IMG/VR virus record: IMGVR_UViG_3300044991_000781
Location: 1 to 32,058 of that record
Origin: a virus
Length of the DNA stretch: 32,058 nt
Strand: one strand, 5' to 3'
The position numbers and the translations under genes were made by a program. Shown piece by piece: positions 6,978-32,058 of the stretch. How positions within the stretch are numbered: position 1 is the first letter of the stretch; the number at the start of each line of letters is the position of its first letter. The notes beneath the pieces are model-generated. The model saw only the letters and a program-made list of their open reading frames with translations, searched no databases and was not told where the DNA came from.

Positions 6978-7741
6978 CGTCTCATTAGTTTTTTGATTTT
7001 GTTGGTCTGGATTCGATCCAGTAGAGTGGTCACGTTTTTCTGGCGATTACTGACGGCGATTGACTCATCCCCTTTTTTCAGCGCGCCTGCGCCAAGATAG
7101 TTGACAAGGTTGGTCATCGTGACGGTTAGTGTTCTGCCATCACCTGTCACCGTTCCCGTGCCTGGCGCTTTCTGACGAGTTGCCCAGCCGGGTATGCCAC
7201 GAACTCCGCCGAGTTGCCGAGCTGCGGTGGCGAATCCTCCTTTTGCAAATCCAGACTTTCGAACGGTTTTGTTTGCGTAAGCTTCGACGCGGGAATAACT
7301 AGTGACAAGCAACCGACGGCTGACGTTCTTTTGTTCGGATTGTTCCTTATGAAGCTTGCCTCCGTCGAACGTGCCGATTGAGATGTGCATGTTTGGGAGG
7401 TGCTGATCGAGTATTTGCCGCGCCTTTTGATAAGCTTTGTTATTGAATGCAAAAGCGAACGGCTTGGTCATTTTCGAATCTTTGTATCTCAGCAGCGTAT
7501 AAATGACTTGAATGCTTGGATAAACCTGCGCGATCCTCGATCTGATCTTCTTCATGTGGTCCGCGTTGTCACCTGATCCCTTCCCTTTGGGATATGTGAC
7601 GTACGCAAGATCAGTGGCGAGCAAGCGCATCTGTGAAGGTAGTACTTCTTTGAGCGTCTTGCCTGTGCTTTCTGCAAGTCGATTCAACGCAAGATTGAGT
7701 TCGCGCATGGATCGCTCGTCGGCTCTTAGGTTGATGTTCAT
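6974..7741 (-). CDS. Putative minor tail / head-tail completion protein (255 aa)
   Basis: This 255-aa basic protein begins MNINLRADERSMRELNLALNRLAEST, a start resembling HK97 gp10-like tail-completion proteins (short N-terminal strand, then a helix). The central part is rich in Lys and Ser and the C-terminal part is Gly-rich. It is coupled by ATGA overlaps to both neighbours (7738-7741 and 6974-6977), so the three small genes between the capsid terminator and 6504 form one translational unit. A role in joining head and tail is likely from order. Confidence 0.55.
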   Translation of the reverse strand: MNINLRADERSMRELNLALNRLAESTGKTLKEVLPSQMRLLATDLAYVTYPKGKGSGDNADHMKKIRSRIAQVYPSIQVIYTLLRYKDSKMTKPFAFAFNNKAYQKARQILDQHLPNMHISIGTFDGGKLHKEQSEQKNVSRRLLVTSYSRVEAYANKTVRKSGFAKGGFATAARQLGGVRGIPGWATRQKAPGTGTVTGDGRTLTVTMTNLVNYLGAGALKKGDESIAVSNRQKNVTTLLDRIQTNKIKKLMRR

Positions 7742-8358: not shown

Positions 8359-9222
8359 TTAAGGAGTGAGTTTGATGATTTTGAGTGCGTTTGGATCGCC
8401 TTTTGCAGCACCGAACATGACATCGTAAGATGCCCAGACGGCGCGAGTTGCGCGAGAAACCCACATGTTCATTTGGACCGTGAGACCAAGATCAGGGATC
8501 TCGATGTTCTCAACTGCCATCATATCGCTTCCAGCGATGTCGTTAGAAGGAAGACCCGATGCAACTGCAATCGCTTGAGGAGAGCAAGCAAAGCCTTTGA
8601 CGGTTGCTTCTGCGCCATCCCAACGGTTGTTGTAGGAGAAGAAGTCGAAACCATACATGCCGACGTTCTTGCCACCAGATGCAAGTTGGAATGCGTCCAA
8701 GTTAGCTGGGAGGAATTGAGCGTAGATGCTGCCATCAACGATCAGGTTGCGGGAATCGCCATCTTTAATGGCTGCCCACAATGTTTTCAGGCTGGTTGCG
8801 GTAACGTCGCCAGCGGTGTCAACGTCGATGGTTGCTGCACCGAAGTTAGCTGCGGTGACAGGAGCCAAAGCCACATCGATGATTTTGTTGGCAAGCTGAT
8901 GAAGGTTGATCTTGGCGATTTTCTCAAGGCGATGACCGCCGTTGATTTGATCGTTAGTCAGGTGAAAGCTGTTGGAATACTGAGAAACCGAAACGGCTAC
9001 GTTGTCGAGCGTGCTGTCGCCGCTTTCAAAGTTGGTTGCGTTGGTTTGAGTGGTTCCGCCGGCTGTTGCGATCGGCACTTGAACAGTGGCGCGAGGCTTG
9101 AGAGGATCGGCGGAGAAGTCTTGCGAAAACGCGTTAAGCGGAGCAAGGCGGGATTGAAGGACAGTGATCGCTACGTCGCGAAGGCTGTCCGTCACTAATG
9201 CTGAGTCAAAGGTGTTAGCCAT
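8359..9222 (-). CDS. Major capsid protein (287 aa)
   Basis: This 287-aa protein lies directly after the portal and the ClpP-type protease/scaffold gene, the standard position for the major head protein. The sequence has the expected character: N-terminal helix (DSLRDVAITVLQSRLAPLNAFS), many short strands, AFQLASGGKNVGMYGFDFF, and a C-terminal segment MNMWVSRATRAVWASYDVMFGAAKGDP. It is probably HK97-fold, forming the icosahedral shell after maturation. The leader is A/T-rich with two copies of ACCTCTAAT and no Shine-Dalgarno tract. A long plus-strand ORF lies opposite it and is a codon-bias shadow. Confidence 0.85.
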   Translation of the reverse strand: MANTFDSALVTDSLRDVAITVLQSRLAPLNAFSQDFSADPLKPRATVQVPIATAGGTTQTNATNFESGDSTLDNVAVSVSQYSNSFHLTNDQINGGHRLEKIAKINLHQLANKIIDVALAPVTAANFGAATIDVDTAGDVTATSLKTLWAAIKDGDSRNLIVDGSIYAQFLPANLDAFQLASGGKNVGMYGFDFFSYNNRWDGAEATVKGFACSPQAIAVASGLPSNDIAGSDMMAVENIEIPDLGLTVQMNMWVSRATRAVWASYDVMFGAAKGDPNALKIIKLTP

Positions 9223-13975: not shown

Positions 13976-14549
13976 CGAGAAGTTTGCCGAGTTCGGACAT
14001 TTCCAAAAGCATCGAATGGGCGAAGTCATCACACTTCTTTACCGCGTCTGGGTATTCTAACCCAACCAAGGCCTGTGGAATTTCGGATGGAATCCGCATG
14101 ATCATTTGTTTGATGACTTGCCCAGCATGAAGTCCTTCGCGTTCTTGGGATTCGCGGGTGACGTATTGACCCATTTCAACATGCAGACGGAATGCGTTCT
14201 TTAACCCGGTGAGCTGCGTGGAAATGGTCCGCGCTTCTTCGTAATCCTTCGCCGCGATCAGTTTGCTTTCCAGCTTCTTGATCTCGTCGGGGATTTGGTC
14301 GGCAAGGATGTCGGGGAAATCTTGGTTTGAATCGTCGTCGTCGGGATCTTGGTCATCGATTGGTGGCTTGATCTTTTTTGGCATCCGTTTTTGATTCCGA
14401 AGTTTTGCCATCAGCGCGTTAGTGTCGTGCAAGTCCAATCCTTTTTTCCGCCATTGACGAACGCAGTCCGAGGTCACATTTCGACCGAGAGCAAGCGTCA
14501 ATCTCGCCGCTGCTTGTGCTATGGTTTCTTTTTTGGATTCAGTTTTCAT
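13959..14549 (-). CDS. Putative terminase small subunit (196 aa)
   Basis: This 196-aa protein precedes and overlaps the large terminase. Its N-terminus has a Nu1-like helix-turn-helix pattern (KETIAQAAARLTLALGRNVTSDCVRQWRKKG), followed by an acidic linker (about 65-80, DDQDPDDDDSNQD) and a helical C-terminal half. Small terminases bind the packaging site with an N-terminal HTH and recruit the large subunit with the C-terminus. The call rests on the HTH plus gene order. The gap upstream of its start holds the candidate packaging site. Confidence 0.75.
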   Translation of the reverse strand: MKTESKKETIAQAAARLTLALGRNVTSDCVRQWRKKGLDLHDTNALMAKLRNQKRMPKKIKPPIDDQDPDDDDSNQDFPDILADQIPDEIKKLESKLIAAKDYEEARTISTQLTGLKNAFRLHVEMGQYVTRESQEREGLHAGQVIKQMIMRIPSEIPQALVGLEYPDAVKKCDDFAHSMLLEMSELGKLLDDRST

Positions 14550-15296: not shown

Positions 15297-15485
15297 TTAT
15301 GTGAGTTTGCTGGATTTTTTTGTGAGTTGCTTAGTCATCGGATTGATCTGGTTGCCTTTGAGGTCGTAGGATTTCAGCCCCTTGCGTGCAAAGTAGCGGT
15401 CACAAGCGGCTGAGACGATCCTAGCGTTCCTCCAATGGAACCTGTAATGCTTTTAGTCCAGCGCATCTTTTGATTCTAGGTTCAT
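15297..15485 (-). pseudogene. Small gene interrupted by an in-frame TAA (10 + 51 residues)
   Basis: An ATG at 15485 overlaps the stop of the HTH gene as ATGA. It opens MNLESKDALD, hits TAA at 15453-15455, and the same frame then continues 51 codons to a TAA at 15297-15299. The downstream part reads like protein (RIVSAACDRYFARKGLKSYD) but has no usable ATG, GTG or TTG before a late internal ATG (NPMTKQ). The coupling at the start and the good coding look after the stop suggest one gene with a nonsense mutation, read-through, or a sequence error. I have no function for it. Confidence 0.5.
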
Positions 15486-15667
15486 GGTGTTACATTGTTT
15501 CGGATCTCGTCGATGTATGTGGCTTGGATCCACTTAGGTGGCTGGCGTCTGCCTGATCTCCAGTCATAGGCCGTCGCCAGGCTGCAACCGATCGCGGCTG
15601 CGATCTGCTTCGCTGAATAGCCGGCGATGGCTGACTGAAATGATTTTGCTTTCATCTTTGCGATCAT
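15482..15667 (-). CDS. Small helix-turn-helix DNA-binding protein (61 aa)
   Basis: This 61-aa protein is almost entirely an HTH domain: GYSAKQIAAAIGCSLATAYDWRSGRRQPP at about residues 16-44 has the Ala-x-x-x-Gly core and the 'W-R-x-G-R-R-x-P' pattern of small phage Cro-like regulators. It probably binds operators in this phage, with the origin-like repeats or early promoters as possible targets. It is in a regulatory block between early and late genes. No integrase accompanies it, so it does not by itself indicate lysogeny. Confidence 0.7.
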   Translation of the reverse strand: MIAKMKAKSFQSAIAGYSAKQIAAAIGCSLATAYDWRSGRRQPPKWIQATYIDEIRNNVTP

Positions 15668-16141: not shown

Positions 16142-16182
16142 GGTAGTGTTTTGTTGGTTGTGGATTTAGCAGTGTTCAAAAA

Positions 16183-16196
16183 AACACTGTTCAAAT
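16183..16196 (+). repeat. 14-bp direct repeat, copy 1 (AACACTGTTCAAAT)
   Basis: This 14-mer recurs exactly at 16390-16403. The two copies bracket the inverted repeat and G-rich tract. A related TGTTCAAA is present at 16173-16180, partly overlapping a 7-bp hairpin stem. The core TGAACA/TGTTCA is dyad-symmetric, so each copy could bind a dimeric protein. Confidence 0.8.
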
Positions 16197-16227
16197 TTAG
16201 TGAGATTGCATCCCATCGTCCCCCAAT

Positions 16228-16264
16228 CCCACACGTTCACCCTAATTTCCTACATAGCTACCCA
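16228..16264 (+). repeat. Left arm of 37-bp imperfect inverted repeat
   Basis: This arm pairs with 16296-16332. By hand alignment 28 of 37 positions match, with two perfectly matched blocks, GTTCACC and GCTACCCA, separated by 15 nt in both arms. The 31-bp segment between the arms is AT-rich. Equal spacing of the two matched blocks suggests a protein-binding dyad rather than chance. Confidence 0.75.
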
Positions 16265-16295
16265 ACTTATGTTTTTTCGTTGATTTTGTGAAAAG

Positions 16296-16332
16296 TGGGT
16301 AGCCATTCTAGATAATAAGGTGAACGGGTGGG
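16296..16332 (-). repeat. Right arm of 37-bp imperfect inverted repeat
   Basis: This is the reverse-complement partner of 16228-16264. It runs from TGGGTAGC through AGGTGAACG into the GGGTGGG tract, so the arm overlaps the start of the G-rich tandem repeat. Confidence 0.75.
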
Positions 16333-16355
16333 ATGGGTGGGATGGTGGGATTGGG
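16326..16355 (+). repeat. G-rich tandem repeat, potential G-quadruplex
   Basis: The plus strand has GGG runs at 16326-16328, 16330-16332, 16335-16337, 16339-16341, 16347-16349 and 16353-16355 with loops of 1-5 nt, built on the unit GGGTGGGAT. The first four runs alone satisfy the common G-quadruplex pattern. It abuts the primase stop codon (16357-16359). The C-rich sequence at 16209-16231 partly mirrors it. Confidence 0.7.
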
Positions 16356-16356
16356 T

Positions 16357-18939
16357 TCAGAGCAAAACTGGGTTTTTTTCCTCGTTTTGAACACTGTTCA
16401 AATGGTGTTCACTTGTAAAAATGAGGTATTGTTTCCGCTCTCGATGCTCCTTGCGGACAGGATCATAATCATGCGAAATGACCCTTGTAATGCGCATGCC
16501 GTCGACGCTGATCGTGTCGCCTTCGTGGTCTTTGAATAACTTACCCAGCAACCTACCTACGCGCATGTCGATTGACTCGCTGAATGTTTTCGCACCTGGT
16601 AGTGGGAGATCATGATCTTCAGAAGCCTCTCCGAAATCTGCTGCTGTGAGAGGCTGACCATCGTATCCAGCATTGATGATTGCTCTGGCGATGTCGCGGA
16701 GCCATTGTAGGCGCGGGTTAGCGGTGCGCATCTGCTCCTCGCGGTGTCCGTCAAGTAGCGGCGGCAGCCCGAAGATGTTCTGAACAATCCAGTCCATTGA
16801 TTGGCACCATCGGCGAAAGTCATGCCTGCGTTCAGTTGTAAGCGGTCGACCTTGTGATGCCCATTCACGGATGACCGCATGGACCGCTCCAAGGTATTTG
16901 GGTTGATGAGCTTTGATATGAGAAACGATGTCGCCTTCTGGGTAAGTCTTGAAATAATGGTTGTCCGAGCGTTTTCGGATTCTTGTGATGACTGCTCGGT
17001 TGGCAAGGTCACGGGTCAGTTCGGCGCCGTTAGTAGAAAGCTGCCATAGAAACGGGGTCACGTCGATGTCGGCCTCGGCACGTAGGGCGCGCGCGGCGAC
17101 CTTGCCAAGCCCTCGGATGGCGGTTTCCATAATCTGCGAGTCCATGCGACCGCGGAAGTTGTCGAAGCTGATGAAAGGTCGTCCTGTGATGAGTGCGCGT
17201 GAAACTCTTTCATCGAGGCTTCCGACTCCACCGGCTGCCTGTGTTATAGCGCTTGGATGTTCGCAATAAATGGCATGGATCATTTTGAAGCGAAAGCTCT
17301 TGCCAGATTGTGACTGGTCAGCCTCGGCAAGGTCAAGCGGGAAGTCGTCATCAATCCATCCGCCCATCTTCATAGCTGGTGAGATCAGCGAAGCCATTGC
17401 TCGGCTTGCATCACCTCCATCGGGAAAGTCGAAGTCAACAAGAGCATCAGACAGTATCTCAATAGCCTCGTTTAAAACGACCGTTTGAACTTCATCACCT
17501 CCGGTCACAAACGTCCCTCCAGCGTGCGGATAATAGCCTTTGCCGATGACCGCTGTCCCACGATCGCCGTCAGGAATAAGGACGGGTGATGAAACCATCT
17601 GCCGGATTCGAGGAAGATACTCCCGTGCGCCATCTGATGACAATGCCACGTCTGCGGATGAAGCTGGGAAAGTTGCTGACCTCCAGCGCATCGTGCCGTC
17701 CTCTCGTGCCTCTCTGCGCATCACCTTCGCGCCGAAGGTCTCGATAAGTGACACAAGACGTTTTGCGGCCACTGGCACCATTGCAAAAGCGTCGGTATCA
17801 TCTGCCGCGACCTCGTGAACCATCGTCCCACGCATGAAAAGTCGGTTGGTCGGACCGATGACCGCGAAGATGTGACGTGCCGCTAAGTCATGACCGATCT
17901 CACCAGCAGGGACTGGGAAGACGTGTTCAGGGATACATGTCGGGTTTTCCTCTGCCTCCTCGACAGTGCGGGGAGTGGCTGCATTTTTGCGTGGCGATGA
18001 GGTCATGGATACTGGTGGAGGTGGACTCCATCCATGTTCTTTTGCCAGCATTACCAAGGTAGCTGCGTGGACATCGGTCAGGCGGTTTTGATATTTCGAC
18101 GCATACTCTCCTGGTTGTTCTTCTGGTGACCAGTCGCAGAGAGCTGCGGTGCCTTCGGACTCACCTATGGCATCCCAAACAGCGGACGCGATCTTGATCC
18201 ATTGTTCATATGTCGGGCGCGATGGGATGACCGCAAGCATCTCGCGAGCAATGTCCGGAGTGATCTCAGTAAATGCCCTTCCACCTTTGATGACCATGCC
18301 TTTTTTCTTGGAATCTTTGGCAGCCTTTGGTAACTCAGGTGTCACAGCCAGCGGCTCGAATACTGCGGTGCGCTCAAGGTCGATCCATGCGCCGGGGTCG
18401 TGGCTGACGAACATGAGGCGGACTGGATCCTTGCAAGCCTCGTCGATCGTGAGGTTGTGGGATCGGAAGTGATTGCGAGCGGCGACAAACGCAGCGACGT
18501 GCTGCTCCTTGGTCGTGCAGATCGGGATCCGAGCGATGCCCTTGACGCCTGCACCGGATGGCGAGACAAAGGCAGCGACGATCCTTGGCTCGGCTTTGAG
18601 GATCTCGACGATCTCCTCGACCTCCCAGCCGACATTGTCGGCAGCGTCGAAGTCAAGTTGTAGCAGCCCGGAGTGATGGAATCGCCCCTCATCGATCGCC
18701 TTAGCCCGGCGGCCTTCGCAGGTGCCCGAGATGCTGACCGCTTGCAGGTCTTTCTTGGCGACTGCGTAGCCGTCATCATCACCGGCTGCGAGCGTGCTGC
18801 GCAGCTTGGCGATCTTGCTTGCGAACTCGTCGGACCGGATCGCCTCGATGAGGTCAGTGAGCGTGGTTGTATCCATCGCGGTAGACGCTGTCGCGGATGA
18901 GTAAAAGTCGATTTCGGGATGTTGCATGATTGTTTTCAT
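16357..18939 (-). CDS. Primase-helicase, VirE/BT4734-type N-domain with P-loop ATPase (860 aa)
   Basis: This is the main replication protein. Residues about 25-195 resemble the primase-like VirE N-terminal/BT4734 domain, with GLLQLDFDAAD (acidic residues near 96 and 98), SPSGAGVKGIARIP and DPVRLMFVSHDP. Residues about 225-300 match a PriCT-2-type module (TYEQWIKIASAVWDAIGE...WSPEE). Residues about 500-760 form an ATPase with a P-loop QSQSGKS (542-548) and a hydrophobic strand PFISFDN (588-594). It would prime and unwind DNA at the origin. The ATG at 18939 immediately follows the HNH gene stop; a second ATG four codons later is possible. Its 3' end contains the palindrome at 16386-16402. Confidence 0.85.
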   Translation of the reverse strand: MKTIMQHPEIDFYSSATASTAMDTTTLTDLIEAIRSDEFASKIAKLRSTLAAGDDDGYAVAKKDLQAVSISGTCEGRRAKAIDEGRFHHSGLLQLDFDAADNVGWEVEEIVEILKAEPRIVAAFVSPSGAGVKGIARIPICTTKEQHVAAFVAARNHFRSHNLTIDEACKDPVRLMFVSHDPGAWIDLERTAVFEPLAVTPELPKAAKDSKKKGMVIKGGRAFTEITPDIAREMLAVIPSRPTYEQWIKIASAVWDAIGESEGTAALCDWSPEEQPGEYASKYQNRLTDVHAATLVMLAKEHGWSPPPPVSMTSSPRKNAATPRTVEEAEENPTCIPEHVFPVPAGEIGHDLAARHIFAVIGPTNRLFMRGTMVHEVAADDTDAFAMVPVAAKRLVSLIETFGAKVMRREAREDGTMRWRSATFPASSADVALSSDGAREYLPRIRQMVSSPVLIPDGDRGTAVIGKGYYPHAGGTFVTGGDEVQTVVLNEAIEILSDALVDFDFPDGGDASRAMASLISPAMKMGGWIDDDFPLDLAEADQSQSGKSFRFKMIHAIYCEHPSAITQAAGGVGSLDERVSRALITGRPFISFDNFRGRMDSQIMETAIRGLGKVAARALRAEADIDVTPFLWQLSTNGAELTRDLANRAVITRIRKRSDNHYFKTYPEGDIVSHIKAHQPKYLGAVHAVIREWASQGRPLTTERRHDFRRWCQSMDWIVQNIFGLPPLLDGHREEQMRTANPRLQWLRDIARAIINAGYDGQPLTAADFGEASEDHDLPLPGAKTFSESIDMRVGRLLGKLFKDHEGDTISVDGMRITRVISHDYDPVRKEHRERKQYLIFTSEHHLNSVQNEEKNPVLL
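16386..16402 (+). promoter_or_regulatory. 17-bp perfect palindrome inside the primase 3' end
   Basis: TTTGAACA, one central C, TGTTCAAA: a perfect 8+1+8 dyad. It contains most of the second copy of the 14-bp element (16390-16403). A perfect dyad of this size in coding sequence suggests a binding site for a dimeric regulator or initiator. Confidence 0.65.
16390..16403 (+). repeat. 14-bp direct repeat, copy 2 (AACACTGTTCAAAT)
   Basis: Exact copy of 16183-16196, located within the last codons of the primase-helicase gene. It is followed by a further partial copy, GTGTTCAC, at 16405-16412. Confidence 0.8.
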
Positions 18940-31163: not shown

Positions 31164-32058
31164 TTAAAATTGCATTATCTTAGCATCTGATATTTGCGTT
31201 ATGAATCCCGTTGGACTCCCTGACGCATTATTTACAGCAACCAGCGCGACTGCGGCATTTGCACCTGAGGCTGTTCCGCTCAAACTTGTTGATAGAGTTG
31301 CTGTATAAAAAGAAGCCGCGCCGTTTTCTTGGCTTATGTAGCCTGTTATATTGCCTGATCCATCAGTTTCAACGCTTACCATGCGATTGTATAAACTGGC
31401 GTTTCCATCTCCAAAACTAACCCAAGAACTAGCAGAGAACGTGCTGCCATCGTGTGCAAATACTCGGAAAACATGATTAGTTCCGTTACTTGTTATTTCC
31501 ATTCCGAAGCCTTTTGCTGTTAATGCGTTTGAGTCAGCATTAGGATATGTATATCCCCATCCATAAAATAACCTAACCACTCCTAGAGGGTCGGATACGG
31601 TTGTCTTAAAATATTGAAGATTTACAGATACGCCGCAACGCCTGTCATATCTGATATAATAAGCCCCGCCGATTGGTTCGTATGAAATAGTTTGGTGTGC
31701 GTATCCTGCATTAGTTGTTCCTGCATTAACTCTTAAGCCAGATGATTGTGTTACTGATGAACCAGCCCCTGAATTTGCTGAATTTCTCGATTGATAGATT
31801 GGAGAGTAAATCTTACCAATGCCGTAAAAGTCATCTGATAGTTTATCACTTGCGGTTATCAAGCTATTACTCGCAGGCGTTCCAGTTCCGCTGCTTGTAG
31901 GTCGGGTTGTGGACGAAAATGCTTGCGCTCCTGCTATCGTGCTGCCGTTCCATGTATTCGTTCCGCCAACTGTAAGAGTTCCGCTAACTTTTGCGCTTCC
32001 AGTCACATCGAGAGCTTCGGCCGCGCTTGTGCCTCCGATAGTAACCTTAGCAGCATCG
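31164..32058 (-). CDS. Tail fibre / receptor-binding protein, C-terminal part (continues from 1-2190)
   Basis: This is the C-terminal part of the 985-aa fibre. Bases 31932-32058 duplicate 1-127, so the unique part is 31164-31931. The frame is open to the window end; an apparent start at 32006 is an internal GTG within the protein. Residues about 705-750 repeat a 'VSGTLTVGGTNTW' linker, and the last ~230 residues form a compact Gly/Ser/Tyr-rich domain (GGAYYIRYDRRCGVSVNLQYF..., FYGWGYTYPNADSNAL...) probably of jelly-roll type, the most likely receptor-contact region. It stops at TAA 31164-31166. Confidence 0.85.
   Translation of the reverse strand, partial: DAAKVTIGGTSAAEALDVTGSAKVSGTLTVGGTNTWNGSTIAGAQAFSSTTRPTSSGTGTPASNSLITASDKLSDDFYGIGKIYSPIYQSRNSANSGAGSSVTQSSGLRVNAGTTNAGYAHQTISYEPIGGAYYIRYDRRCGVSVNLQYFKTTVSDPLGVVRLFYGWGYTYPNADSNALTAKGFGMEITSNGTNHVFRVFAHDGSTFSASSWVSFGDGNASLYNRMVSVETDGSGNITGYISQENGAASFYTATLSTSLSGTASGANAAVALVAVNNASGSPTGFITQISDAKIMQF
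31932..32058. repeat. Direct terminal repeat, right copy (circle junction)
   Basis: Exact copy of bases 1-127. Joining the two copies restores one continuous tail-fibre reading frame and gives a circular length of 31,931 bp. Confidence 0.95.

Follow-up and report, generated by a model that had tools for sequence, protein, structure and literature searches.

The window, that is, the whole 32,058-nt virus record analysed here, carries a 127-nt direct terminal repeat (positions 1-127 and 31932-32058), and because of this repeat the record is probably a circularly closed, complete genome of 31,931 bp (~31.9 kb). Nearly all of its convincing genes lie on the minus strand, and a terminase large subunit and head- and tail-like genes are encoded. 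Between 19801 and 22111, a row of small minus-strand ORFs has the appearance of tandem paralogues, with products that start with MNTDTPRTD or MSKSETPRTDK and end with TTNEL or NPNEL. The gene of interest encodes an 860-aa primase-helicase whose N-terminal domain is BT4734-like (PF08800, 58 bits), followed by a PriCT_2-like segment scoring just below the cutoff (PF08707, 21 bits) and a helicase part in which the SQSGK motif is invariant; the match to PrimPol_Db was weak, at 48 bits and far below the cutoff. The features at the 3' end of this gene are collected in the table.

Features at the 3' end of the primase-helicase gene (positions in the window)
Feature	Position	Strand	Details
Degenerate palindrome copies (two), far side	16164..16195		16164-16180 and 16179-16195; equivalent site in L003, L004, L023
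Iteron array A, inverted, pairs with array B	16209..16241	-	units 16209-16216, 16217-16225, 16226-16234 and CGTTCACC 16234-16241
A+T-rich core	16244..16318		inner stem TAGCTACCCA / TGGGTAGC (~16255-16264 / 16296-16303) and TCTAGAAT-like blocks
Iteron array B, adjoins primase stop codon	16319..16355	+	GGTGAACG, GGTGGGATG (16327-16335), GGTGGGATG (16336-16344), GTGGGATTG (16345-16353)
Primase-helicase gene, proposed initiator	16357..18939	-	BT4734/PrimPol-like N-terminal domain, PriCT_2-like segment, helicase
Perfect palindrome TTTGAACACTGTTCAAA	16386..16402		8+1+8, odd centre; in 3' end of primase gene

Directly after the primase-helicase stop codon lies the strongest inverted repeat of the window, and the sole strong local one in 32 kb, with arms at 16220-16264 and 16296-16340. 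A preliminary description had reported a 37-bp imperfect inverted repeat here (28/37 matching); the repeat is real, but that measure was too short, as the arms extend over 45 nt and are 76% complementary. Compared with dinucleotide shuffles, its predicted folding reached z-scores of -8.3 with RNA parameters and -6.5 with DNA parameters, and none of 200 shuffles equalled it. The two conserved blocks formerly seen at equal 15-nt spacing do recur, but they belong to a tandem 9-bp repeat present in both arms (16327, 16336 and 16344/16345). Each arm is built from three units of the word GGTGGGATG, in opposite orientation in the two arms, with a fourth unit, GGTGAACG, on the inner side. Between the arrays, which have 61% GC, the core falls to about 34% (16244-16320); it is the probable melting and priming region. 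A DNA search of the window placed the repeats in this one region, apart from an 18-bp match in a coding region. The six GGG runs at 16326-16355 arise because the GGTGGGATG-type word is read on one strand. Their earlier interpretation as a G-quadruplex motif was not borne out, since such motifs occur in 3 of 51 non-redundant regions against 2.9% of controls, and L006, L007 and L023 possess the element without such GGG runs.

Outside both iteron arrays stand TTTGAACAnTGTTCAAA sites. The 17-mer palindrome is unique to this region of the window, with three matches at no more than three mismatches against 0.11 expected. The remaining landmarks of the preliminary description could likewise be located, namely the 7-bp hairpin CAGTGTT/AACACTG (16170-16176/16183-16189) and the two exact 14-mers (16183-16196 and 16390-16403). 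Its placement of everything downstream of the primase-helicase holds for the inverted repeat; the second 14-mer and the perfect palindrome fall within the last ~50 nt of the ORF itself. In the window, L003, L004 and L005, ~46 nt separate this palindrome from the end of the primase gene, and a weaker version occurs in L006 (-45). In several relatives, the outer palindromes flank the element on both sides at a constant distance; other relatives have lost them or carry a replacement, which suggests an auxiliary role. In L022, direct repeats of GCAAATTGTTCCACAGA flank the hairpin in their place (8562-8580 and past the hairpin).

Conservation was assessed in nine viral relatives with readable 3' regions obtained from primase scans, leaving out L001, which is identical to the window; more distant relatives of the primase number in the dozens and reside mostly in Verrucomicrobiota MAGs. 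The element immediately follows the primase stop codon in eight of the nine, whose primases show best-segment identities of 54-99%, and was not found within ~900 nt downstream of the primase of L009 (51% identical). The preliminary description had named lack of a skew switch or coverage peak, together with loss of the repeats beside conserved flanking genes, as grounds for abandoning its proposal; as the element is conserved in relatives together with the adjoining primase gene, the proposal survives that comparison. The repeat word itself is replaced wholesale from phage to phage (GGTGGGATG; GTGGGACG; GGTGCGCA; GGTGTGATG; ACAGGGGG; GGTCGCAC; GGGGTGCAC in L110), with variants including GTGCGCA, GGTGTGAT, GGTCGCAC and GGGGTGCAC, and the two arms agree within each phage. 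The inner stem CTACCCA...TGGGTAG hardly varies among the relatives, and the Verrucomicrobiota genome L110 has the same core with another word behind its primase stop codon. Across nine sequences, the window included, the 17 pairs of the outer stem are 97.4% paired, with 12 pairs doubly changed and no one-sided change; none of 500 shuffles matched this covariation, and slid registers dropped to 32-48% paired. Extra repeat copies can be confined to one arm, as in L007 (four versus two) and L030 (three versus two). The lack of one-sided intermediates and these one-arm repeats speak for DNA words bound by a protein rather than for an RNA helix. When 2.9 million viral contigs were searched with the core pattern, seven matched, all previously known to carry this primase.

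Two further observations concern the variability of the element. In L003, whose primase is 99% identical, the arm version ACTAGAATCTTACCCCCAACG (~7685-7710) replaces the GTAGGAAATTAGGGTGAACG of the window (~16230-16255) and resembles the arms of L004, L006 and L023; these sequences suggest that the patch exists in two circulating alleles, and one of them locally breaks the stem. Moreover, the core beside the arrays in L030, L032, L033, L034, L110 and the window (16300-16320) often contains TTTTCTAGAA-like and TACCCC blocks despite unrelated iteron words, and these blocks are possibly a shared melting or priming signal.

For a wider comparison, the 260-350 nt that follow 51 primase-helicase genes were analysed, with other gene ends of those loci serving as controls. 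The inverted-repeat score exceeded the 99th percentile of 427 controls in 15 of the 51 loci. For a count of repeat lags, 71 loci, including P4, the pRN plasmids and phages fetched later, were collapsed by similarity into 51 groups and set against 512 control gene ends. Direct repeats 6 nt or longer with a 9-bp lag were present in 49% of the groups versus 15.6% of the controls (p = 1.9e-7, an optimistic value because the lag had been noticed in part of the same loci before counting). Runs of at least 8 nt at this lag were present in 17/51 groups versus 19/512 controls, a lag of 18 bp in 31% versus 13%, and lag 8 was mildly raised; about half of the 51 groups lack the 9-bp signal. Loci fetched after the lag had been noticed agree with it (L110, L111, L118, L119, Acinetobacter phage 4316, P4 and pHEN7), and the repeat words are unrelated between groups. 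A few loci behind primase or replication genes display an 11-bp period instead (L049, L050, L064, L112 and L140) and are perhaps a second class. In the Bacteroidota loci L072, L074, L075, L076 and L079, arrays of TTTGCA (TTCCTCA in L072) come after the primase-helicase gene, and in several of them a gene resembling an XRE-type regulator follows.

Three other readings of the element were weighed. Its position directly past a stop codon, in the transcribed direction, and its very stable predicted RNA fold are what a structured RNA would show, be it a 3' UTR hairpin, a small RNA or a terminator formed by transcription through the primase gene. However, no terminator-like site was found and an Rfam search returned no match. 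The concerted change of 12 outer pairs without G-U or one-sided steps would be unusual for an RNA helix and is expected if both arms need the same DNA word, and a helix has no need of the additional one-arm repeats in L007 and L030. We therefore consider an RNA element extremely unlikely. An operator region, in which iterons and palindromes are bound by a repressor or copy-number regulator, draws on the operator-like TTTGAACAnTGTTCAAA sites, the small HTH genes nearby and a promoter-like match in the core. Promoter-like matches are nevertheless at chance level (2 found versus 1.2 expected), and two inverted arrays phased at 9 bp around an AT-rich core behind an initiator gene reproduce the layout of tested PICI origins. 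The HTH protein encoded at 15482-15667, which had been offered as a possible binder, is present in L003-L005 and was not found in L006, L007, L022 and L023; since both L006 and L023 keep a palindrome and no such gene was detected close to their elements, it is an improbable candidate, and the operator reading as a whole appears very unlikely.

A packaging site (cos or pac) recognised by the terminase small subunit is the least probable of the three. Packaging genes do follow replication genes, and in the window the terminase genes begin ~2 kb beyond the element; in Acinetobacter phage 4316, the hairpin is followed by one short gene and then by an annotated terminase small subunit, and the next ORF in L006 looks like a terminase small subunit by reading of its sequence. 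Yet the element goes with the primase stop codon, irrespective of what comes next, replicons that lack a packaging module (pRN1-type plasmids) carry it behind such genes as well, and the crr repeats of P4 are annotated as ori repeats.

The element is best interpreted as a phage replication origin of the iteron type, situated where the gene for its own initiator ends, a reading to which we assign a probability of about 0.83 on the basis of sequence comparison and analogy. It had been proposed in the preliminary description, with the primase-helicase as a possible initiator, and is supported by the location at the gene end, the concerted change of the arms, the conserved architecture, the 9-bp enrichment and the tested precedents of pRN1, PICIs and P4. 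Cumulative GC skew, which had been suggested as a check, gave a detrended minimum at 14,288 of tiny amplitude and is uninformative because all main genes lie on one strand. In the proposed mechanism, the primase-helicase, probably by way of its C-terminal domain, would bind the 9-bp iterons in both arrays. As the arrays face each other, the A+T-rich core could be flanked by two helicase rings, one loaded on each side. The core would then melt, perhaps aided by the inner hairpin, and the PrimPol-type N-terminal domain would prime the exposed single strands, giving rise to two forks. The outer TTTGAACAnTGTTCAAA sites may serve as auxiliary sites for the primase-helicase itself or for a regulator. 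A separate iteron word for each phage lineage could keep co-resident replicons from firing each other's origin.

Modeling of the putative initiator yielded a helix-helix-helix-strand-strand-strand topology for its C-terminal 140 aa (pLDDT 78), which is compatible with a winged helix; a fold search of the PDB with this model gave no match at E<=0.001, and a sequence search against solved structures retrieved no relative. The full-length AlphaFold2 model, built from 6 sequences, was poor (pLDDT 47). Comparing the repeat word with the C-terminal residues of the primase in 8 sequences singled out no residue pattern.

These findings provide a group of uncultivated phages linked to Verrucomicrobiota with a testable replication origin, and because the word turns over quickly while its spacing stays fixed, initiator-origin specificity and incompatibility can be tested directly. 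They also lead to a tentative generalisation, which we rate at slightly less than even odds: that origins behind PrimPol/D5-type primase-helicase genes in phages, satellites and plasmids of bacteria and archaea follow one geometric rule, with two inverted arrays of a lineage-specific word every 9 bp, in which the 9-bp period and the core are retained even as the word is completely exchanged. Were this rule to hold, the spacing would fit a hexameric initiator whose successive sites are turned by about -50 degrees, although this is speculative. Inverted 9-bp iterons at the 3' end of a primase-helicase gene would offer a simple signature for origins in environmental phages, plasmids and satellites.

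Among known systems, the best reading by analogy assigns the element to the pri-rep-ori kind of origin already known from P4, PICIs and pRN1. PICI origins, which consist of two sets of iterons on either side of an AT-rich stretch downstream of pri-rep, can drive the replication of plasmids (PMC6092414), and Cch2 of SCCmec uses its C-terminal domain to bind iterons located downstream of its own gene (PMC7581432). Judged from these two reports (the latter citing Ubeda 2007), the element shares with PICI/SaPI origins its layout and its position directly 3' of the primase/initiator-helicase gene. It differs in that the window represents a tailed phage, which encodes terminase and head proteins itself, rather than a satellite island, and in that its arrays are near-perfect inverted repeats with a conserved inner stem, to which initiator binding is predicted. 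In P4 (NC_001609), crr immediately follows alpha and contains annotated 8-bp type-1 repeats in opposite orientation, with spacings of 9 and 18 bp, and inverted short repeats in multiples of 9 bp behind a primase-helicase gene are likewise found in the window. However, P4 alpha carries a TOPRIM-type primase (PMC4234260), whereas the primase domain in the window is PrimPol-like, and P4 has a second repeat region (ori) ~5 kb from crr, whereas the window shows one region. RSF1010 oriV, compared by description, similarly offers inverted-repeat hairpins (ssiA/ssiB) to a primase, but there the iterons stand apart from the hairpins and three proteins do the work (PMC4234260).

Replication of the Sulfolobus plasmid pRN1 requires a 100-nt stem-loop that immediately follows the PrimPol-helicase gene, and the integrity of the stem matters; the authors of that work extended this stem-loop origin to Bordetella phage BIP-1/BPP-1 (PMC4234260, PMC3869888). 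In BPP-1 we found a weak stem behind the primase and no clear 9-bp array. The pRN1 family resembles the window in having a stem-loop of ~100-150 nt directly 3' of a PrimPol-type primase-helicase gene, with the stem kept and its sequence not, although in the window the arms consist of clear tandem 9-bp iterons and are flanked by additional sites. The pRN proteins were not retrieved by the window primase in a translated search of a plasmid collection. While pRN1 has been stated to have no iterons (PMC4234260), its arms (L093, 3' of orf904) hold TGTCCA twice, 9 bp apart, and inverted in the other arm; those of pRN2 (L138) and pHEN7 (L137) also hold words 9 bp apart (GGAC and TGTCACCAC/TGTCACAAC, respectively). 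Judging by this sequence pattern, the archaeal pRN1 stem-loop and P4 crr may be elements of one kind. A 9-bp rule that holds for words unrelated to each other, and that extends to the pRN stem-loops, appears to be unreported in the papers searched. If the rule is true, the pRN1 stem-loops, P4 crr and the phage hairpins described here would represent one kind of origin.
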